From the NCBI GenBank assembly GCA_013334225.1, contig JAAXXY010000007.1, positions 23,961 to 87,960 of the forward strand: a stretch of DNA of 64,000 bases, read 5' to 3'. A program made the position numbers and the translations under genes. Each line of letters starts with the position of its first letter. Positions within the stretch are counted from its first letter, which is position 1. The stretch is from Chlorobiaceae bacterium. GTDB taxonomy: Bacteria > Bacteroidota > Chlorobiia > Chlorobiales > Chlorobiaceae. Below the pieces are notes generated by a model. It was not told the origin of the DNA. It searched no databases and was given only the letters and a program-made list of their open reading frames with translations. This document shows positions 8,811 through 56,048 of the stretch, in pieces.

Positions 8811-10320
<1,510 letters not shown>

Positions 10321-16342: not shown

Positions 16343-17935
16343 TCAGCAGGCAGGGACAGCTGATTTGTTCATATAGAGATGATAATTGATGCTGTCCTGG
16401 AGCGCCTGGAGGCTGGCTTCGATAATATTTGTCGAAACACCGACTGTTCCCCAGGTTGTGCGGCCGTTGCCAGTTTCGATCAGTACACGTACTTTCGCAC
16501 TGGTTCCGCGTTTTTCCTCGAGCACACGCACCTTGTAATCCACGAGACGCATTGCCTTTATCTCGGGATAGAAACGGCTCAGAGCCTTGCGCAGTGCCTT
16601 GTCGAGCGCATTGACCGGTCCGTCACCGTCAGCCGCAGTCAATTCCACCTCGTCAGCGACCCGGACCTTGAGAATTGCCTGATCGACGTTTTTTGCGTCT
16701 TTCCCTGACTCGATGTGCACCTTTGTTTCCAGTACTTCGAAAAAGGGATGAAAATTGCCGAGTTCTTTCTGCAGGATAAGTTCGAACGATGCTTCAGCGC
16801 CGTCGAACTGGTAACCCTTGTGTTCGAGTTCCTTGATGTTGTGCACGATTTTCTTGAACACCTCGCTTTTTTCAGGGATCGTGATGCCGAGTTCCTGGGC
16901 CTTGTAACGGATGTTGCTCTGTCCGGACAGTTCGGACACCAGTACCCGCTGACGGTTCCCGACGAGGGCCGGATCGATGTGCTCGTAGAGCGAGCTTTCC
17001 TTCATTACAGCGCTGACATGGATACCTCCCTTGTGCGCGAAGGCTGATTTCCCTACGAAAGGAGCTTTCGAGTTCGGGGGCAGGTTCAGTATCTCGTACA
17101 CGTAGTTCGAGAGCAGCGTCAGCTGGCCAAGATGCTCGACAAAGGTGAAACGGCCATCGAGCTTGAGCATGATGTTCGGAATGATGCTGATGAGATTCGC
17201 GTTGCCGCACCGTTCACCGATGCCGTTGATGGTGCCCTGGATATGCGTCGCTCCGGCTATCACCGCGGCAATGGAGTTCGCGACGGCAAGGTCGCTGTCA
17301 TTGTGGCAGTGGATTCCGATCGGAACGTTCGCCGCTAGGCGTACGGATTTTACGATCTCGATCACTTCATGGGGCAGTGTGCCGCCATTCGTATCACAGA
17401 GCACAACTTTCGACGCTCCGCCCTCGACCGCAGAACGGATCATTTTCAGCGCGAACTCCCGATTGCTTTTGTAACCGTCGAAAAAATGTTCCGCGTCGAA
17501 AATTACTTCCCGGCCTTCATTTCTGAGAAAAGCCACCGATCTGAAGATCAGTTCGGCATTTTCTTCGTCAGAGATGCCGAGTCCTTTCTTGGAGTGCGCG
17601 TTCCAGGTTTTGCCGAATATAGTGATGACAGGCGTTTCTGAACGCACCAGTCCCAGCAGGTTGGGATCGCTTTCCACTTCCGATGCCAGACGGGCGGTAG
17701 AGCCGAAAGAGCAGAGCCTTGCGTGCCTGAGATTCAGGTTGCGGGCCTTGCTGAAAAACTCCTCGTCTTTCGGATTGCTGCTCGGCCATCCGCCTTCGAT
17801 GAAGTCCATACCGAACTCGTCGAGCCTTTCGGCGATAAGCAGCTTGTCCTGTACCGAAAGGGTGATATGCTCACCCTGCGTGCCGTCGCGAAGTGTCGTA
17901 TCGTATAGTTCTATAAGCTTTGCGCCTTTTGTCAT
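16343..17935 (-). CDS. cimA: (R)-citramalate synthase CimA-type
   Basis: LIELYDTTLRDGTQGEHITLSVQDKL, GGWPSSNPKD, HCHNDSDLAVANS, C-terminal LeuA dimer domain. Confidence 0.88.
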   Translation of the reverse strand: MTKGAKLIELYDTTLRDGTQGEHITLSVQDKLLIAERLDEFGMDFIEGGWPSSNPKDEEFFSKARNLNLRHARLCSFGSTARLASEVESDPNLLGLVRSETPVITIFGKTWNAHSKKGLGISDEENAELIFRSVAFLRNEGREVIFDAEHFFDGYKSNREFALKMIRSAVEGGASKVVLCDTNGGTLPHEVIEIVKSVRLAANVPIGIHCHNDSDLAVANSIAAVIAGATHIQGTINGIGERCGNANLISIIPNIMLKLDGRFTFVEHLGQLTLLSNYVYEILNLPPNSKAPFVGKSAFAHKGGIHVSAVMKESSLYEHIDPALVGNRQRVLVSELSGQSNIRYKAQELGITIPEKSEVFKKIVHNIKELEHKGYQFDGAEASFELILQKELGNFHPFFEVLETKVHIESGKDAKNVDQAILKVRVADEVELTAADGDGPVNALDKALRKALSRFYPEIKAMRLVDYKVRVLEEKRGTSAKVRVLIETGNGRTTWGTVGVSTNIIEASLQALQDSINYHLYMNKSAVPAC

Positions 17936-17938
17936 AAA

Positions 17939-18505
17939 TCAGCCCTGGGCCATTAAATTTTCCTGCCTTGCGTAGGCAAATATACCTCCTGCCTGAACGA
18001 TGCTGAAGACATCGCCGAGCGGGTTGAGCTTGTAGACGGTACTCGTGCTGAGGTTCTCTACCGTGTTTGCCTCGATGTCGATTTTCAGTTCCTCACCTGT
18101 TTTCACGATCTGGTTGAGGTGCTCTGCGGTCTCATAAGGAATGACGAAGCCGCCGTCAACGCAGTTTCGGTAGAAGATCCTCGCATATGATTCCGCTACG
18201 ATCGCTTTCGCACCCGCCACCTTGAGGGAGAACGGAGCATGTTCCCTCGACGAGCCGCAGCCGAAGTTTGGTCCTGCCACGATAATGGAGTATTCGGATT
18301 CGAACTCGCCATCCTTTACGAAAGGAATGTTTCCATCAGGAAGCCCTCCTTCCGGAAGCGGTACGCCTGAAAGGGCATATTTGCCGTACATTTTCACCTC
18401 ATCCGGTTTGGAGAGGCTGTAAACGAGATGTTCGGCCGGGATGATCTGGTCGGTGTCGATATTCTTGCCTAACACGTAGGCTTTTCCCTGAATGATGTTT
18501 TCCAT
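17939..18505 (-). CDS. leuD: 3-isopropylmalate dehydratase small subunit
   Basis: GKNIDTDQIIPAEHL, GPNFGCGSSREHAP. Confidence 0.9.
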   Translation of the reverse strand: MENIIQGKAYVLGKNIDTDQIIPAEHLVYSLSKPDEVKMYGKYALSGVPLPEGGLPDGNIPFVKDGEFESEYSIIVAGPNFGCGSSREHAPFSLKVAGAKAIVAESYARIFYRNCVDGGFVIPYETAEHLNQIVKTGEELKIDIEANTVENLSTSTVYKLNPLGDVFSIVQAGGIFAYARQENLMAQG

Positions 18506-18558
18506 TGTTGAAAGTTCCTTACAAGTTCATTCAAATCATTGACTTATCATTTCATCGA

Positions 18559-19857
18559 TCAGAGGAAATCCCTTGGATCGGTGAGTTTTCCGGTTATAGC
18601 CGAAGCGGCTGCCGTGAGCGGAGATGCGAGGTATACTCCCGCATGCTTGCTGCCCATGCGTCCGGGGAAATTACGGTTCGTTGTAGATACCACGACGTCG
18701 TTGTCTACCGAACGTCCCACCGTGTCTGCCGGACCGCCAAGGCACGCTGCGCACGAGGGCAGTGCGATGCTGCAGCCCGCATTTTCGAATATCGATTTAA
18801 GCGTTTCTCCCTGGTACTGTTCGCATTCCAGGTCCTGCATGACCTTGACCGTTGCAGGAACGATATTGGTCAGGACCGATACTTTCTTTCCCTTCAGGAT
18901 TTTGGCCGCCATCCGGAAATCTTCGAGCTTTCCGCCGGTGCACGAGCCGATATAGGACTTCGTGATTTTCGTGCCCTGCACGCTTCTTACCGTTGCCCTG
19001 TTTTCCGGGCTGTGCGGCTGTGCGACGACAGGCTCGAGCTCACGAACGTTGTAGCGGTATTTACTGTGGTAGCGAGCACCCGGATCGCTCTGGAAAATCT
19101 CGTACGGTTTCGACGTCTTCGACTTCACATACGCTTCGGTGATGCTGTCGGCTGCAATGATGCCGTTCATGCCGCCGGCTTCGATGGCCATGTTGGTGAG
19201 CGTCATCCTTTCTTCCATAGGCAGGGAGAAGACCGCCTCACCGTCAAACTCCATTGCGCGGTAGGTGGCTCCATCGGTACCGATATCGCCAAGGATCTGC
19301 AGGATCAGGTCCTTGGCCGTCAGATATTCCGGCATTTCGCCGTCGAAGGTGAACTTCATCGATTCAGGCACTTTTTCCCACAGCTTTCCGGTGCCGAGAA
19401 TGAATGCGGCGTCGGTGTTGCCGATACCGGTGCCGAACATGCCGAACGCACCGGATGTGCAGGTGTGTGAATCGGTGCCGAACAGTACGGTACCCGGCAG
19501 GTTGAACCCTTCCTCGGCAAGCGCGACGTGGCAGACGCCCTTGTAACGATCGGTGCCGACATCGTAATAGTTAGGCAGGTCCTGTTCCTTCGCGAACTGC
19601 CTGAGCAGGTCGATGTTGCGGTGTGCATGCTCGTTGGCCGTGAAGATGTAATGGTCTGGAAGCACCACGACCTTTTCAGGGTCCCAGACTTTTGCGTCAG
19701 GACCGAACTCCTCCTTGAAGATATCGAAGGTCGGCGGGCCGCAGACATCGTGTGTCAGCAGTATATCGACGTTGAGCCAGACGTTCTCCCCGGCATCTAC
19801 GAACTTCCGGTTTGCTGCCCTGGCAAGGATTTTCTGGGTTATTGTCTGTTCCATCAT
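18559..19857 (-). CDS. leuC: 3-isopropylmalate dehydratase large subunit
   Basis: GTDSHTCTSGAFGMFGTGIGNTDAAF, YIGSCTGGKLEDF, PSCAACLG, TTNRNFPGRMGS. Confidence 0.92.
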   Translation of the reverse strand: MMEQTITQKILARAANRKFVDAGENVWLNVDILLTHDVCGPPTFDIFKEEFGPDAKVWDPEKVVVLPDHYIFTANEHAHRNIDLLRQFAKEQDLPNYYDVGTDRYKGVCHVALAEEGFNLPGTVLFGTDSHTCTSGAFGMFGTGIGNTDAAFILGTGKLWEKVPESMKFTFDGEMPEYLTAKDLILQILGDIGTDGATYRAMEFDGEAVFSLPMEERMTLTNMAIEAGGMNGIIAADSITEAYVKSKTSKPYEIFQSDPGARYHSKYRYNVRELEPVVAQPHSPENRATVRSVQGTKITKSYIGSCTGGKLEDFRMAAKILKGKKVSVLTNIVPATVKVMQDLECEQYQGETLKSIFENAGCSIALPSCAACLGGPADTVGRSVDNDVVVSTTNRNFPGRMGSKHAGVYLASPLTAAASAITGKLTDPRDFL

Positions 19858-19863
19858 GGTTTG

Positions 19864-21486
19864 TTAAACCCCGTTGTCTGTTATTGTTTCGGTTGTACTG
19901 TTCTGGAAATGAAGCCTGCGCAGGCCGAGTGCCTGCAGGTACGCTTTCGCGCTGGCTTCGATAACGTCGGTCGATACACCTCTTCCGTTGAATGATATGT
20001 TTCCGTCCCTGATCCGGACCAGGGCTTCACCGAGGGCCTGCCTGCCGGCTGTGGCGGAACGTACGGTATAGGTGCTCACCATCGATTCGATGCCGAGAGC
20101 CCTTTCGATAGCCCTGAAACACGCATCGACCGGACCGTCGCCGGTAGCGGATTCCTCATACACCTGGCTGTCATGCTTTATTCTCACGGTTGCTGTCGGG
20201 ATCGATGCGGTTCCGCTGTTGATATGCATGTAGTCGAGCAGGTAAGTCCCTCCCGGCCTGCTCATTTCGTCGCCCATCAGTACTCTGAGGTCATCGTCGT
20301 ACACTTCTTTCTTTTTGTCGGCTATATCAAGGAAACGGCGGTAAACCGTTTCAAGTTCCTGGTCACCGAGTTTGTAGCCAAGTGCGGCAAGCCTTGCCTG
20401 AAGGCCATGCTTGCCGGAATGGCGTCCGAGCACGATGTTTGTCTGCGGCACACCGACCGATTCGGGTGTCATGACCTCGTAGGTTTCACGGCTTTTCAGC
20501 ATACCGTCCTGATGGATGCCGGACTCATGCGAGAATGCGTTGTCGCCTACAATTGCCTTGTTCGGCTGGATGATCATGCCGGTGAAAGCGGAGACCATAC
20601 GGCTGGTATTGTAAATTTCTTCGGTCACGATGCCTGTCCTGAAATTGTGCAGGTCGCTCCGGACTTTCAGCGCCATGACGATCTCTTCGAGCGAAGCGTT
20701 TCCGGCGCGCTCGCCGATACCGTTCATTGCGCATTCGATCTGTCGGGCGCCACGCTCGACAGCACTGAGCGAATTGGCAACAGCGAGGCCGAGGTCGTTG
20801 TGACAGTGGACGCTGATCACGGCTTTGCTTATGTTCGGCACGCCCGCGACAAGGCGGGCTATCTTTTCACCGAATTCCGACGGCCAGGTGTAGCCGGTCG
20901 TATCCGGAATATTGACTGTTGTGGCTCCGGCATCGATAACAGCAGAGATAATTTCGGCAAGGTAACCGGGATCGGTCCTTCCTGCGTCTTCGGCTGAAAA
21001 CTCCACATCGGGAGTAAAAGTTTTGGCGAACTTCACTGCATCGACCGCCATCTGCAGCACGGTCCCTTGTTTTTCCTGAAGGCTCGCACCGTAGCGGTCG
21101 CTTCCGAACTTGCCGAGAATGTGTATGTCGGATGTGCTGATGAAGGTATGAATCCTCGGTTTGAGGGCATCTTTCAGAGCCTTCCATGCAGCGGTGATGT
21201 CGTTTTCCACGGCTCTTGCAAGTGCCGCGATGACCGTATGCGATTCCGAGCAGATACGCTGCACTGCCTCGAGCTGCAGAGGGGAAGATGCCGGGAAACC
21301 GGCTTCTATGACATCCACACCGAGCTTTTCGAGCTGACGGGCAATCTCAACCTTTTCCTGAACATTCAGGGAGGCCCCTGGGGATTGCTCTCCGTCGCGC
21401 AGCGTTGTATCGAAAACCAGGATTTTTTCTCTCACGTTACCTTCAGCCCTTGTTTTGTCAGGCGCCGAGGTGCCTGATGATTGCAT
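19864..21486 (-). CDS. leuA: 2-isopropylmalate synthase
   Basis: LVFDTTLRDGEQSPGASL, VEFSAEDAGRTD, HCHNDLGLAVANSL; annotated start overlaps leuB, and an internal GTG start is possible. Confidence 0.93.
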   Translation of the reverse strand: MQSSGTSAPDKTRAEGNVREKILVFDTTLRDGEQSPGASLNVQEKVEIARQLEKLGVDVIEAGFPASSPLQLEAVQRICSESHTVIAALARAVENDITAAWKALKDALKPRIHTFISTSDIHILGKFGSDRYGASLQEKQGTVLQMAVDAVKFAKTFTPDVEFSAEDAGRTDPGYLAEIISAVIDAGATTVNIPDTTGYTWPSEFGEKIARLVAGVPNISKAVISVHCHNDLGLAVANSLSAVERGARQIECAMNGIGERAGNASLEEIVMALKVRSDLHNFRTGIVTEEIYNTSRMVSAFTGMIIQPNKAIVGDNAFSHESGIHQDGMLKSRETYEVMTPESVGVPQTNIVLGRHSGKHGLQARLAALGYKLGDQELETVYRRFLDIADKKKEVYDDDLRVLMGDEMSRPGGTYLLDYMHINSGTASIPTATVRIKHDSQVYEESATGDGPVDACFRAIERALGIESMVSTYTVRSATAGRQALGEALVRIRDGNISFNGRGVSTDVIEASAKAYLQALGLRRLHFQNSTTETITDNGV

Positions 21487-22516
21487 TTGTCATATCGGTT
21501 GTCGAAACACTCTTTTCACCCGGTTTCGCGATATCGGCGGTCCTTATGCCCGAAGCAAGCGCATTCTCGATCGCTCCGTATATCTCGGCAGCGATGTCTG
21601 TTCTGCGGAAACTGTGCTCGAACATCATGGCAACCGAGGCGATGGTCGCGATCGGGTTGGCGATGTTCCTTCCGGCGATGTCCGGTGCGCTGCCGTGGAT
21701 AGGCTCGTACAGGGCGTGTTTGGTGCCGATGCTTGCCGAAGGGAGCATCCCGAGGCTGCCGGTGATCATTCCGGCAATGTCGCTGAGGATGTCGCCGAAG
21801 AGGTTGCCGGTCACGATGACATCGAACTGCTTCGGGTTGCGGACGATCTGCATCGCTGCATTGTCGACATACATATCGCTCAGTTCAACATCATGATACT
21901 CCTTGTGTACCTCGTGCACGACATTCCTCCAGAACTGTGAGACTTCGAGAACGTTTGCCTTGTCGATGGACATGACCCTGCCCTTACGCTTGCGGGCCGC
22001 CTCGAAAGCGAGCCTGGCAATGCGTTCAACTTCGTAGCGTTCGTACACCATGGTGTTCCAGCCGCGGTTCTCGTCATATCCGCGGGGCTGTCCGAAATAG
22101 ATTCCGCCTGTAAGCTCCCTGAACACGAGGAAGTCGGTTCCCCTGACCACTGCGTCCTTAAGCGACGAAGCCTCGACAAGTGCATCGTAGACCTTCGCCG
22201 GCCTGAGGTTCGCGAAAAGTCCGAGCTCCTTGCGTATCCTCAGGAGTGCCGCTTCCGGTTTCTTTTCGTGAGGCAGGTTTTCCCATTTGGGTCCTCCTAC
22301 CGCACCGAGCAGGACCGCATCGCAGTTCCTGCATGCTTCGAGCGTGTCGTCGGTGAGCATTTTACCATGCAGGTCATATGACGCACCTCCGAAGGGGTGC
22401 TCTTCGACCGTATATTCGAGTCCATGTTTTTTTGCAACTGCGCCAAGGACCTCGAGGGCCCCCGCGACAACTTCCGGGCCGATTCCGTCGCCCGGTATCG
22501 AAACTATTCTGTACAT
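21458..22516 (-). CDS. leuB: 3-isopropylmalate dehydrogenase
   Basis: MYRIVSIPGDGIGPEV, RELTGGIYFGQPRG, GSLGMLPSASIG, EPIHGSAPDIAGRNIANP. Confidence 0.93.
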   Translation of the reverse strand: MYRIVSIPGDGIGPEVVAGALEVLGAVAKKHGLEYTVEEHPFGGASYDLHGKMLTDDTLEACRNCDAVLLGAVGGPKWENLPHEKKPEAALLRIRKELGLFANLRPAKVYDALVEASSLKDAVVRGTDFLVFRELTGGIYFGQPRGYDENRGWNTMVYERYEVERIARLAFEAARKRKGRVMSIDKANVLEVSQFWRNVVHEVHKEYHDVELSDMYVDNAAMQIVRNPKQFDVIVTGNLFGDILSDIAGMITGSLGMLPSASIGTKHALYEPIHGSAPDIAGRNIANPIATIASVAMMFEHSFRRTDIAAEIYGAIENALASGIRTADIAKPGEKSVSTTDMTNAIIRHLGA

Positions 22517-22532
22517 GATTCTCCCGTCCTTC

Positions 22533-23531
22533 TTATTTCCTGACAAGCCAGCTCATCATGTCGCGAAGCTTCGCACCGACTTTTTCGATCGGATGCAGGC
22601 TGTTATCCTTTCTCAGCCGGGAAAGGTTATTGTAGCCTCCGTTGCACTCGTCGATGAACTCTTTCGCGAAACTTCCGTCCTGAACCTCGGTGAGGATTTT
22701 CTTCATTTCAGCCTTCACCGCCGGGGTGATGACGCGGGGTCCGCGGGTCATGCCGCCGTACTCTGCCGTATCGCTGACGGAAAAGTTCATTCTTGAAAGG
22801 CCGCCTTCATAATAGAGGTCGACGATGAGCTTCAGCTCGTGCATGCACTCGAAATAGGCAAGCTCTTCCGGATATCCGGCTTCGACCAGGGTTTCGAACC
22901 CGGCCTTGATCAGTTCGGCAGATCCGCCGCAGAGCACGGCCTGTTCTCCGAACAGGTCGGTTTCGGTTTCGTCCTTGATGTTTGTTTCTATAACGCCGGC
23001 TTTTGTGCCGCCGAGGCCTTTCGCCCACGCGAGAGCCTGCTGTTTCGCCTCACCGGTGTAATCCTGGTGAACGGCGATAAGGCACGGTACGCCGTTGCCT
23101 TCGGTGAAGGTGCGGCGGACGAGATGGCCGGGGCTTTTCGGCGCGATCATGATGACGTTTATCGTTTCAGGCGGCACGATCTGCTTGTAATGGATATTGA
23201 AACCATGCGCGAAAGCGAGTGTGTTGCCCGGAACCAGGTTAGGCAGGATCTCGTTTTCATAGATGGTTTTCTGGTACTGGTCGGGCAGGAGCACCATGAT
23301 GATATCGGCCCATTTCGCTGCATCGGCAACCGTGTTGACCTGGAGACCGGCTTCTCTTGCCTTTGCACAGGAGGAACTGTCGGGGCGGAGGCCCACACAG
23401 ACGTTCAGACCGCTGTCCTTGAGGTTCAGGGCATGAGCATGACCCTGACTGCCGTAACCGAGTATCGCTATATTTTTCCCCTGGAGATAACCGAGATCGG
23501 CATCCTGCTCATAGTAAACGTTCATCTTCAA
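22533..23531 (-). CDS. ilvC: Ketol-acid reductoisomerase
   Basis: [42 protein letters not shown]. Confidence 0.95.
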
Positions 23532-23558
23532 ATAGTTTAGATTGATTGATAAAATAGT

Positions 23559-24047
23559 TTATTCTCCCCGGTGTATCGCAACAACGCCGGAACGGGCAAG
23601 CTCCTTTATGCCATAGGGCTTGAAGATATCAATGGACGTATTGATCTTGTCCGGAGAACCGATGACCTCAATAGTAATGGATTTTTGCTTGATATCCACG
23701 ACTTTTCCTTTAAAAACGTTGATGAGCTCAAAAATCTCGTGCTGCGTGGTTTTGCTGAGCTTCAGCGTCATCAGCAGCAGCTCTCTTTCGACATGCGGCT
23801 GCCTGGTCAGATCGGTGACCTTGATGGTGTCGATGAGCCGGTTGAGCTGCTTGAGCACCTGGTTGATGATCTGGTCGTCACCCCTGGTCACGATGGTCAT
23901 ACGCGAGATTTCCGGATCCTCGGTTTCACCGATGGAGATGCTTTCCAGATTGAACCCTCGCGCGCTGAACATGGCCGCGACGCGGTTCAGGGAGCCGAAC
24001 CTGTTTTCGACGAGAACAGAAATGATGTGCTTCATAGTCCGATTCAA
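23559..24047 (-). CDS. ilvN: Acetolactate synthase small subunit
   Basis: HIISVLVENRFGSLNRVAAMFSARGFNLESISIGETED, ACT domain. Confidence 0.93.
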   Translation of the reverse strand: MNRTMKHIISVLVENRFGSLNRVAAMFSARGFNLESISIGETEDPEISRMTIVTRGDDQIINQVLKQLNRLIDTIKVTDLTRQPHVERELLLMTLKLSKTTQHEIFELINVFKGKVVDIKQKSITIEVIGSPDKINTSIDIFKPYGIKELARSGVVAIHRGE

Positions 24048-25765
24048 ACCATTGTTTTAGGGTTTAACCTTGCAAGGAGCATGTCTGAAATCGCTCCTCC
24101 CGCAGGCACCATTGGGAAAACCATATCTTTTTTGACAACCCTGCAGTCGACGAGGACCGGCCCGTCGTTGTAGTCGAGGGCGATTTTGATCGCTTCCTTC
24201 GCATTTTCAGGGTTGTCGGCCATCAGGGCCTTGCATCCGAACGCTTCGGCAAGCTTGACAAAATCAGGATTGCTGTCGCCGAGATCGGTGAAGGAGTACT
24301 TCTCCTTGTGGAAAAGCTCCTGCCATTGGCGTACCATGCCGAGATAGCTGTTGTTGATCAGGAATATCTTGACAGGTATCTTGCAGTAGACCGCCGTGAC
24401 AAGCTCCTGGATGTTCATCATGAACCCTCCGTCCCCGCAGAACAGCACGACGGGCCGGTCCGTAATGCCGAATGCCGCGCCGATGGCCGCAGGAAGGCCG
24501 TAGCCCATGGTGCCGAGCCCGCCGCTCGATATGATGGAGCGTGGATTCAGGAACGTATAGAACTGACTCGTCCACATCTGGTGCTGGCCGACATCGGTCA
24601 CGACAACGGCATTACCGACAGTCTGCCTGGAAACCTCCTCGATGACGAACTCGGTTTTCAGCGAGTCCGGTTCGAGCGTGTAGTTGAGCGGGCATTTTTT
24701 GCGCCACTTCTCTATTTCGGCAAGCCAGGAATCATGGTTTTCCGTTTTTTCCGGCATCTCCTCGAGAAGGGATGCGAGGAAATCCCTGGAGTCGCCGACG
24801 ACAGGCAGGTCAACCTTGATATTCTTGTCGACGTTGGTAGGGTCGATATCGTTGTGGATCTTGTAAGCCTGTGTAGCGAACGCGTCGATTTTTCCGGTAA
24901 CCCTGTCATCGAACCGGGCGCCGACGGCGATGAGCAGGTCGCAGTTGTTGACCGCCTGGTTAGCCCAGTAAGTGCCGTGCATGCCGAGCATACCCATGCT
25001 CAGGGGATGGTTGCCCGGGAAGGCTCCAAGTCCCTGCAGGGTCATGGTGACCGGGATACTGTACTTTATGGCAAGCGCCCGAAGCTCTTCCGATGCTTCT
25101 GCCGTAATGACGCCGCCGCCGACATAGAGCAGTGGACGTTTCGCTTTCGCGATTTTATGCGCGGCTTTTTCAATCTGGTTCTTGTGGCATTTGAATGTCG
25201 GTTTGAACCCGCGGATTTCAACTGTTTCCGGCCACTCGAACGCGCAGGTGGCCGCCAGTACGTCCTTGGGCATATCGACGACAACCGGTCCGGGCCTGCC
25301 TGTCGTGGCGAGATAGAATGCCTTGCGGATGGTGATCGCGAGTTCTTTGACATCCTTGACCAGGAAGTTGTGCTTGGTGATCGGCCTGGTGATGCCCACG
25401 ATATCGGCTTCCTGGAAAGCGTCGTTGCCGATGAGTGAGCTCGGGACCTGGCCCGTGAACACAACTATCGGGGATGAGTCCATGTAGGCATTGGCAATAC
25501 CGGTGACGGTGTTGGTTGCGCCCGGCCCCGACGTGACGAGGACTACGCCGGGTTTTCCGGTTGCACGGGCGTACCCTTCGGCCATGTGGGTCGCGCCCTG
25601 TTCGTGACGGACAAGGATGTGTCTGATGTCTTCGATATCGTGGAGCGTCTCGTAGACTTTCAGCAGCGATCCTCCGGGGTACCCGAAGATATATTCGACG
25701 TTTTCACGCCGCAGGCATTCGAAGAATATTTCCGATCCGTTCAGCATCTGGCCTGTTGTATGCAT
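24044..25765 (-). CDS. ilvB: Acetolactate synthase large subunit
   Basis: ThDP enzyme: EYIFGYPGGSLL, VRHEQGATHMAEGYARATGKPGV, GDGGFMMNIQELVTA. Confidence 0.95.
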   Translation of the reverse strand: MHTTGQMLNGSEIFFECLRRENVEYIFGYPGGSLLKVYETLHDIEDIRHILVRHEQGATHMAEGYARATGKPGVVLVTSGPGATNTVTGIANAYMDSSPIVVFTGQVPSSLIGNDAFQEADIVGITRPITKHNFLVKDVKELAITIRKAFYLATTGRPGPVVVDMPKDVLAATCAFEWPETVEIRGFKPTFKCHKNQIEKAAHKIAKAKRPLLYVGGGVITAEASEELRALAIKYSIPVTMTLQGLGAFPGNHPLSMGMLGMHGTYWANQAVNNCDLLIAVGARFDDRVTGKIDAFATQAYKIHNDIDPTNVDKNIKVDLPVVGDSRDFLASLLEEMPEKTENHDSWLAEIEKWRKKCPLNYTLEPDSLKTEFVIEEVSRQTVGNAVVVTDVGQHQMWTSQFYTFLNPRSIISSGGLGTMGYGLPAAIGAAFGITDRPVVLFCGDGGFMMNIQELVTAVYCKIPVKIFLINNSYLGMVRQWQELFHKEKYSFTDLGDSNPDFVKLAEAFGCKALMADNPENAKEAIKIALDYNDGPVLVDCRVVKKDMVFPMVPAGGAISDMLLARLNPKTMV

Positions 25766-25776
25766 AGCTTCTTTAT

Positions 25777-27474
25777 TTATTTGATTTCACAGGAAACAGG
25801 ACTTTTCAGGACAGCGCCGGTATTCGCCGACGTCACCAGCTGGGAATATCTCCCGAGATAGCCCTTTTTGATTTTAGGCTCGAATTCCTTCAACGCGGCG
25901 AGCCGTTCGGTTATCACTTCAGCGGAAAGGTCCACCGATATGGTTCTCTGAGGAATATCGATGGTTATGCTGTCTCCCGGCAGCAGTGCCGCGATCGGGC
26001 CTTTTTCAGCTGCTTCGGGAGAAACATGACCGATACAGGCCCCCCTCGATCCGCCCGAAAAACGTCCGTCGGTGATGAGCGCTACCGAAGACCCGAGACC
26101 GAGTCCCATGATCGCGCTGGTAGGGGAGAGCATTTCCGGCATTCCCGGGCCGCCTTTCGGTCCTTCGTAGCGGATGACCACGACATCGCCGGCTTTCACA
26201 TCTCCTTCCATGATACCTTTGATCGCATCATCCTGACAGTCGTATACCTTTGCAGGACCGGTGTGCTTCATCATTTCCGGTGCGACTGCTCCGGTTTTCA
26301 CCACAGCTCCCTGCGGCGCGAGGTTGCCGTAAAGCACTGCAAGGCCTCCGGTCGCTGAATACGGGTTCTCGATGCTCCTGATGACCGAATGGTCCATCAC
26401 TTCCGTATTTTCAATGTTCTCTCCGAGGGTTTTCCCTGTTACCGTCATCGCCGAAAGGTCAAGCAACCCGTCGATTTTGCTCAGTTCCTTCAGGATTGCG
26501 GAAATTCCCCCTGCGCGGTCGACGTCTTCTATATGGACATCCATCGTGGCAGGGCTGACCTTGCAGATATAGGGAGTTTTTGCAGAAAGCCCGTTCAGTT
26601 CCGAAAAATCGAAATCGAGCTCCGCTTCTGTAGCGATCGCGAGTGTGTGCAGGATCGTGTTGGTGCTTCCTCCCATCGCTAAATCGAGTGCAAAGGCGTT
26701 AAGAAGCGCTTTTCTGGTAAGGATGTCCCTTGGCCTGATATTTTCGTTCACGAGCCCGACGATGCGGCGGGAAGCCTCCCTGACAAGATCGATCCTTCTC
26801 GGATCCTGGGCGAGGATGGTACCGTTGCCGGGCAGGGCGAACCCGAGCGCCTCGCACAGGCAGTTCATAGAGTTTGCCGTGAACATGCCGGAGCAGGATC
26901 CGCATCCCGGGCAGGCGTTGTCTTCGTAGGATTCCAGCTCGCTTTCGCTGATATTGCCTGCGCTGTACTGACCGACCGCCTCGAAGACCGAGATCAGGTC
27001 GACGGTTTTGCCGGAAGGTGTATGGCCCGCCTTCATCGGGCCACCGGAAACGAATATGACGGGAATGTTGATGCGAAGCGCGGCCATCATCATTCCCGGC
27101 GTGATCTTGTCGCAATTGGGTATGCAGACCAGCCCGTCGAGACGGTGTGCTTCGGCGACGGTTTCAACACTGTCAGCTATGAGCTCGCGGCTCGCGAGTG
27201 AATACCGCATGCCGATATGTCCCATGGCGATGCCGTCACAGACCCCTATCGTATTGAACTCGAAAGGAACGCCGCCGGCCTTGCGGACCTCTTCCTTCGC
27301 GATTCTGCCAAATTCCTGCAGATGGGCATGGCCGGGGATCAGCTCGTTGAAAGAGTTACAGATCCCGATAAAGGGTTTTTTGAAATCATTGTTGGAAGTG
27401 ATTGAACCGGTCGCTTTAAGCAGACTGCGGTGCGGAGCTTTTTCAAATCCTTTTTTTATGGTATCAGATCTCAT
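25777..27474 (-). CDS. ilvD: Dihydroxy-acid dehydratase
   Basis: [52 protein letters not shown]; start 27474, downstream of the attenuator. Confidence 0.94.
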
Positions 27475-27503: not shown

Positions 27504-27534
27504 AAAAAAACTCGGGTAGCGCCGTTCCCGAAGC
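27504..27534 (-). terminator. Attenuator-like intrinsic terminator upstream of ilvD
   Basis: Minus strand cTTCGGGaacggcgctaCCCGAGTTTTTTTG, 30 bp before the ilvD start. Confidence 0.75.
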
Positions 27535-27588
27535 CACTGAAATGAAAAGTCTGAAAGAGGTAAATGGACTTGGGACCGGCTCTGAAAA

Positions 27589-27762
27589 TCAGAGTACAAG
27601 AATGCTCACTACCGGGAGCACCACTGGGATGACGATTCCGATCCTTGAAGAGAAGGAGTTCGACAGCTGCTCTGCCTGGGCAGTGCGATCTGAAGGAGTT
27701 ATTGATGCAGAAGCACAGGAACTCCTGCAGGAATGAACATTATGTTGATCAGATGCGGACAT
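27589..27762 (-). CDS. BCAA-rich leader peptide (57 aa) for ilv operon attenuation
   Basis: MSASDQHNVHSCRSSCASASITPSDRTAQAEQLSNSFSSRIGIVIPVVLPVVSILVL*; 12 of the last 17 residues are I/V/L; lies between the ilvD promoter region and the terminator. Confidence 0.7.
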   Translation of the reverse strand: MSASDQHNVHSCRSSCASASITPSDRTAQAEQLSNSFSSRIGIVIPVVLPVVSILVL

Positions 27763-27957
27763 TGACGCGAAAAGGTTTCTTCCAATAAGAAAACTAAATA
27801 ATCACCGCAATTTAATGTGAAAGTTTTATTAAAACAAAAACAAAAAAATCGGACCGTGATGATCATTACTTTTTTATTCTGAAGAGTTAAAATGATATTT
27901 TTTATGCATTCAGAGTACTGTTCAGTGTTTTTTTCAAGCAAATAACAAATCAGAACC

Positions 27958-55194: not shown

Positions 55195-55593
55195 GGGGAT
55201 GACAGGCTTTCGACAGGGCATGTGTGATATTGAGTTGCACTCCGAGTTTCAGCATGGATGGACTCGTTAAAGAAGTCTATGTACCTATTAGATGCAGACG
55301 ATCATTCGTATGCAATGGCTGCCTGATTAGCAAAAGTTAACTCACCAGCCATCGTCCGACCGGGGGATGCGCTTACTCTGAATCCGGCGGATGGCATAAC
55401 CCGCGCTTGAGCTTCGGCTCGCGCAAGTAGGCTCCTTCTTCTTTTTCCCTGGAAAGGGGAAGGGTAAACACAGGGATAGTGAAACGGCCTTTACAGGTGT
55501 AGTTCCGTTTCACGAAACACCGAACACCTGAGATGAGTGTGGTAGCTTCATAGAGCAATGTTCTGGACGCGGGTTCGAGTCCCGCCATCTCCA
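55195..55593 (+). ncRNA. ssrA: tmRNA (SsrA)
   Basis: 5' GGGGATGACAGGCTTTCGACAGGG; tag ORF GCAGACGATCATTCGTATGCAATGGCTGCCTGA (ADDHSYAMAA*) at 55294-55326; 3' GGACGCGGGTTCGAGTCCCGCCATCTCCA; acceptor GGGGATG/CATCTCC pairs. Confidence 0.95.
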
Positions 55594-56048
55594 CTTTTGA
55601 CCTATCCGGTAGCCTCCGGAAAAGTCCGGAAACCCTTGAGAAATCAGGGTTTTCCGTGTTTTATTCGCTGTGTTGACTCAGGTGTTATTTACCGTGCAGT
55701 TGGCGTAAAGTTTTCTGAATTTAAGGCACCTCAATCAATTTCTTCTGAATCTCGATTGCAGCGTTGTCAAGACACGCAGGGATCGAAATCCTCATCCTGA
55801 AAACTTTCGGGACTCCGGTTTTGGAGTTTATCACGATAAGATCGGGACACCGTCTGCCTTGCACTCGTGCTTCTCACTACAATAAATACAATAAATAGAA
55901 GTACCCTGTAGTGGTACTGTGAGGCGGTCAATTTCCATCTTATTTGAACTATCAGAAAAACATATATCAGTTTTTTATGTAAGTTGCAATTGTATCCCGT
56001 CTCGTAACCTGTTTCACAATCTATCTTTAAACATATCCCTGAATCACG

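Follow-up and report, generated by a model that had tools for sequence, protein, structure and literature searches.

A candidate ribosome-mediated attenuator with a long branched-chain leader peptide upstream of ilvD in Chlorobia, and similar leaders in related phyla

Introduction

The enterobacterial ilvGMEDA, ivbL and leuL attenuators regulate through leaders of roughly 28–32 codons. The locus upstream of ilvD described here in a Chlorobiaceae bacterium can be likened to these systems by architecture. Both have a leader rich in isoleucine, valine and leucine codons (I/V/L), antiterminator and terminator helices that are predicted to be mutually exclusive, and ilv and leu genes; the chlorobial leader, however, has about 57 codons with the control codons all at its very end, and one device stands before a combined nine-gene ilv-leu-cimA operon. 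Amino-acid attenuators were reportedly predicted "in some cases" in Bacteroidetes/Chlorobi by Vitreschak et al. in 2004, and the Chlorobium ilvD locus may be among the attenuators predicted in that study or by Lopatovskaya et al. in 2010. No paper describing the leader or the ilvD locus came up when the searched library was queried for leader peptides of Chlorobi.

The leader of Staphylococcus aureus ilvD is a 26-aa peptide with a Shine-Dalgarno site (PMC5794164). It shares with the chlorobial locus an ORF carrying Ile/Leu codons directly before ilvD, a terminator past the stop codon and a combined ilv-leu operon, but none of the 12 Bacillota genomes sampled here, which did not include S. aureus, was found to have a leader of the long I/V/L kind before ilvD. 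The Corynebacterium ilvBNC leader, or ilvB-II motif (PMC11857589, PMC10272879), is likewise a case of ribosome-mediated attenuation of branched-chain genes with a conserved uORF, although it precedes another gene (ilvB) in another phylum. Attenuators are regarded as fast-evolving and difficult to trace, and a 2010 survey stated that leader-peptide systems had been described from Proteobacteria and Actinobacteria alone before it added Firmicutes (PMC2965389).

We analysed a 64,000-nt stretch of DNA (the window) in which an earlier reading of the sequence had proposed ribosome-mediated attenuation of the ilvL/ivbL type upstream of ilvD. Our comparative analysis supports that architecture and adds to it a covarying antiterminator predicted to compete with the terminator. 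At a probability of about 0.9, the locus would be a transcription attenuator of the ilvGMEDA/leu type, mediated by the ribosome and placed before an ilvD-B-N-C-leuB-A-C-D-cimA operon. This reading is based on a conserved ORF, its codon run, a promoter, a covarying antiterminator, an overlapping terminator and the joint loss of these parts.

Results

The coordinates and translation of the leader ORF (MSASDQHNVHSCRSSCASASITPSDRTAQAEQLSNSFSSRIGIVIPVVLPVVSILVL*) match those of the original prediction (Table 1). The end of the ORF is as rich in I/V/L as had been claimed, with 13 rather than 12 such residues among the last 17 (12 in the best 15-residue window), and its position ahead of ilvD stands with a small correction of the gap, as 114 nt and not 115 separate the leader stop from the ilvD ATG (27474). 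The window holds 1226 stop-ended open stretches of 30 codons or more; among these, the leader ORF is the only one with at least 12 I/L/V in its last 17 residues. Shuffling the bases of the intergenic region gave an ORF with such an end in 5 of 20,000 cases. No clear Shine-Dalgarno site was found before the leader ATG.

Table 1. Features of the leader locus and the operon behind it, in window positions
Feature	Position	Strand	Details and basis
Predicted promoter	27809..27837	(-)	TTGTTT 27837-27832, 17-nt spacer, TAAATT 27814-27809
Leader peptide ORF	27762..27589	(-)	57 codons, ATG 27762-27760, TGA 27591-27589
Control region	27592..27642	(-)	final 17 codons, including 13 for Ile, Val or Leu
Putative segment 1, GGAUCGG	27638..27644	(-)	MFE fold; can pair with segment 2 CCGGUCC as a weakly supported protector hairpin
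Stop-codon hairpin, CUCUGA-UUU-UCAGAG	27580..27594	(-)	MFE fold
Segment 2 (antiterminator 5' arm), GCCGGUCCCAAGUCCAU	27564..27580	(-)	conservation, pairing test
Segment 3 (antiterminator 3' arm), AGUGGCUUCGGGAACGGC	27521..27538	(-)	overlaps terminator 5' arm
Intrinsic terminator, UUCGGG / CCCGAG	27504..27532	(-)	6-bp stem, 10-nt loop, UUUUUUU 27510-27504; MFE fold
ilvD, dihydroxy-acid dehydratase, operon gene 1	25777..27474	(-)	NCBIfam NF002068, TIGR00110; conserved N-terminus sets start
ilvB, ilvN, ilvC, leuB, leuA, leuC, leuD, cimA	16343..25765	(-)	NCBIfam

The nine genes behind the leader end with cimA, assigned by NCBIfam as a citramalate synthase, and either overlap or lie no more than about 53 nt apart, a spacing which suggests that all nine would be under control of the attenuator. 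An Rfam search of the window returned no family at the leader locus and only two matches elsewhere, a SAM riboswitch (RF00162) at 8811-8917 (+), well above its gathering score, and a tmRNA gene (RF00023) at 55195-55596 (+).

Conservation of the leader was examined across the class Chlorobia, in which 84 of 98 genomes yielded an ilvD gene; the sequence before the gene was inspected in 81. An in-frame ORF ending in an I/V/L run precedes ilvD in 78 of these 81, with the leader stop located about 108–130 nt from ilvD. The alignment of Chlorobi ilvD upstream regions that the original prediction had suggested as a check has in this way found the run to be kept, and the lack of conservation it had named as counter-evidence was observed neither in relatives nor in other phyla (see below). 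For 56 dereplicated leaders, the mean number of I/L/V in the last 17 codons was 9.6 in frame; the two remaining frames gave 1.1 and 3.25. T made up 58% of codon position 2 in the control region. Counted over independent pairs, changes in the control region at codon positions 1, 2 and 3 numbered 53, 34 and 54; the fewest fall at position 2, the pattern that interchangeable I, V and L codons would leave. The control region across relatives is also enriched in GTA, CTA and ATT, codons that are rare in window genes: GTA accounts for 42% of Val codons in the run versus 12% in window genes and CTA for 11% versus 0% of Leu codons, values that are indicative only, as the baseline is 13 window genes and the comparison mixes genera.

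Leader length counted from the ATG is exactly 57 codons in 39 of the 78 genomes and 46–61 in most others. The claim that the leader is unusually long holds against the 26-aa S. aureus ilvD leader but not within the lineage, where about 50–57 codons is normal. Natural short leaders of 27 and 35 codons (L033, L011) retain the MSALN/MSAFN start, which supports the start codon and indicates that the middle of the peptide can be dispensable. The N-terminal two thirds of the leader are under little amino-acid constraint, and in the N-terminal part the other two frames are open in 17/52 and 15/52 genomes. Strong amino-acid selection on the mid-peptide was suggested by counts over all pairs and was set aside, the signal being weak with independent pairs; these gave 49 synonymous changes in the mid-peptide versus 37.4 expected (p = 0.019) and no excess at third positions.

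A promoter-like sequence (TTGTTT-N17-TAAATT) lies 46 nt 5' of the leader ATG in the window, and an equivalent with 16–18 nt spacing is present in 51 of 52 dereplicated genomes versus 6.2 expected from shuffles, at 32–72 nt 5' of the leader ATG. The sister genus has TTGACT/TTGATT-N17-TAACTT/TAAATT. Because this promoter is conserved upstream of the leader ATG, the start site is predicted to lie 5' of the leader ORF, in the window near 27802. A start site 3' of 27589, which the original prediction had named as evidence against itself, is therefore not what the conserved promoter (51/52) points to.

A conserved RNA element of 101 nt follows the leader stop codon. GCCGGUCCCAAGUCCAU and GUGGCUUCGGGAACGGC within it are strongly conserved in sequence and can pair with each other, and this antiterminator helix covaries. 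In 56 sequences, 83% of cells were in standard pairs and 9 of 16 pairs showed changes on both sides; such both-side changes occupied 33 cells versus 14.8 in shuffles, with none of 500 shuffles as high, and no slid register came near the score of the true one. One subclade, for example, has AAGUU/AACUU for AAGUCC/GGCUU. The 1:2 protector helix folds well in the window, with 62% of cells paired across the alignment and covariation not above that of shuffles. By eye, the stop-codon hairpin recurs in the sister genus in GCCUGAC/GUCAGGC-like versions.

The terminator that had been claimed to follow the ORF was found in the window, and its UUCGGG strand is common to the antiterminator. Across the class a median of 7 U occurs in the 12 nt after the hairpin. 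The terminator helix showed no covariation and its register shifts between genomes, behaviour that could follow from one strand having two pairing partners. RNAalifold applied to the whole alignment gave no consensus structure, an outcome expected where folds are mutually exclusive, and the helices were then tested one by one. A generic promoter/terminator scan detected neither element, given the limits it sets on consensus and loop; the terminator was overlooked because its loop exceeds 8 nt. In most Chlorobia a conserved UUUAAUUGC-like motif stands just 3' of the U-tract (corresponding to about 27504-27480 of the window); the window genome lacks it.

For a covariance model of the element, 54 sequences from Chlorobiaceae and two of Chloroherpeton-like origin were used. 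The model found exactly one copy per genome, at the site upstream of ilvD, in 78 of 86 genomes of the family. Three reduced genomes of 1.6–2.1 Mb (L054-L056; G022, G039, G029) have lost both leader and switch and gave no match to the model. L051, L053 and L065 form a clade with a degraded I/V/L run, and in L051 and L065 the terminator tail has lost its U-tract, the 12 nt there containing 2 and 4 U. Codon run and terminator decay together, as would be expected of one device. L054, L055 and L056 still carry a promoter-like motif upstream of ilvD.

Outside Chlorobia, leaders before ilvD in other families of the phylum have 14–15 I/L/V in their last 20 residues. Among genomes of related phyla other than Chlorobia, 39 of 45 had a leader upstream of ilvD, versus 0 of 23 genomes from the unrelated Bacillota, Chloroflexi, Gemmatimonadetes, Nitrospirae and Hydrogenedentota; the same threshold was reached in 6 of 79 regions in an antisense control. 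By group, the leader occurred in 16/18 Ignavibacteria, 6/7 Rhodothermia-like, 3/4 Calditrichia, 10/11 Marinimicrobia-like and 4/5 KSB1/Deferribacteres-like genomes, groups that follow record titles with a few guessed (L170, for example, titled Dehalococcoidia, was placed with Marinimicrobia by leader likeness). These leaders are mostly 49–57 codons long. Three Gemmatimonadetes (L172, L175, L204) have a different shared hydrophobic ORF (..SQLLLSLILSLLLIGVGLIGFGKRTG..) upstream of ilvD, which in L172 and L175 is followed by very strong hairpins (about -67 kcal/mol) and may represent a separate attenuator type.

When run on 157 kb of non-Chlorobia loci, the covariance model gave five matches, all just upstream of ilvD in Ignavibacteria-type genomes, the best with E values of 1.6e-5 and 5.2e-4 and the rest from 0.08 to 5. 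There is good evidence here for common descent of the attenuator RNA in Chlorobia and Ignavibacteria, and common descent is likely for the Rhodothermia-like, Calditrichia, Marinimicrobia-like and KSB1-like leaders. In several Ignavibacteria (L106-L111, L137-L149) the 3:4 hairpin has no immediate U-tract and is followed by a UAUCUGAAG-like element, so the output stage of the attenuator may differ there. The UAUCUGAAG-like element in Ignavibacteria-type genomes may pair near the ilvD ribosome-binding site.

Discussion

In the proposed mechanism, transcription would start 5' of the ORF and a ribosome would trail RNA polymerase across the 57-codon leader. When the supply of charged Ile, Val or Leu tRNA falls short, the ribosome would stall in the last 17 codons, leaving segment 2, just past the stop codon, free; segments 2 and 3 would then pair as the antiterminator, the terminator would be blocked and the nine-gene operon would be transcribed. 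With ample charged tRNAs, the ribosome would reach the stop codon and mask the stop hairpin together with the first part of segment 2; segments 3 and 4 would then pair and transcription would stop in the U-tract. Translation of the leader, stalling and termination in vivo are what we infer from this arrangement.

The same leader and sensing could act through another output, Rho-dependent termination or ilvD translation, in place of the intrinsic terminator. The variable terminator register within Chlorobia and the Ignavibacteria that have the UAUCUGAAG-like element where a U-tract would directly follow the 3:4 hairpin are in keeping with this, and such an output deserves some weight for Ignavibacteria. 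For the locus as a whole we consider it unlikely, as the window has a 6-bp stem followed by seven U, the class has a median of 7 U in 12 nt, and in one clade the U-tract disappeared along with the codon run. That the ORF is a chance feature of an untranslated leader, as its prediction by eye and without annotation might suggest, is negligibly probable for an ORF that is one in 1226 stretches, arises in 5 of 20,000 shuffles and is conserved across the class and beyond.

Two further explanations would move the sensor away from codon-dependent stalling, and we judge each very improbable. A protein- or ligand-binding, riboswitch-like RNA with an incidental ORF could account for the unusual conservation of segments 2 and 3 in sequence as well as in structure, but the I/V/L class is kept despite nucleotide changes, the run of codons is retained in several phyla and missing where the device is lost, and no Rfam family matches the leader region. 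An arrest peptide, in which a long nascent chain would, as in TnaC, halt its own ribosome in response to a small molecule, agrees with a leader that is long, often exactly 57 codons, and hydrophobic at its C-terminus. Against it, the end residues are unconserved, with I, V and L interchangeable and terminal residues varying between genera, and natural versions of 27 and 35 codons exist. Ribosome-mediated attenuation through the I/V/L codons is the reading that we retain.

This kind of attenuator is well known. The present case stands out for its age, for how widely it occurs and for the length of its leader; its occurrence in additional phyla and the homology of the RNA may be new. We give even odds to the broader proposal that one orthologous attenuator descends from the common ancestor of Chlorobia, Ignavibacteria, Rhodothermia, Calditrichia, Marinimicrobia and the KSB1-like phyla, with the leader length of about 50–57 codons itself under selection. 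If this is true, the attenuator would be among the oldest and longest-leader examples described, and a selected leader length would perhaps set ribosome-polymerase timing.

In summary, one candidate peptide-plus-RNA device can be traced throughout the class and, through homology searching, as far as Ignavibacteria; other phyla have leaders that resemble it. Its shortened, decayed and lost copies form a large natural variant series for testing which parts of an attenuator matter. The device would also fill a gap in the regulatory annotation of green sulfur bacterial genomes and is a candidate RNA family for Rfam.
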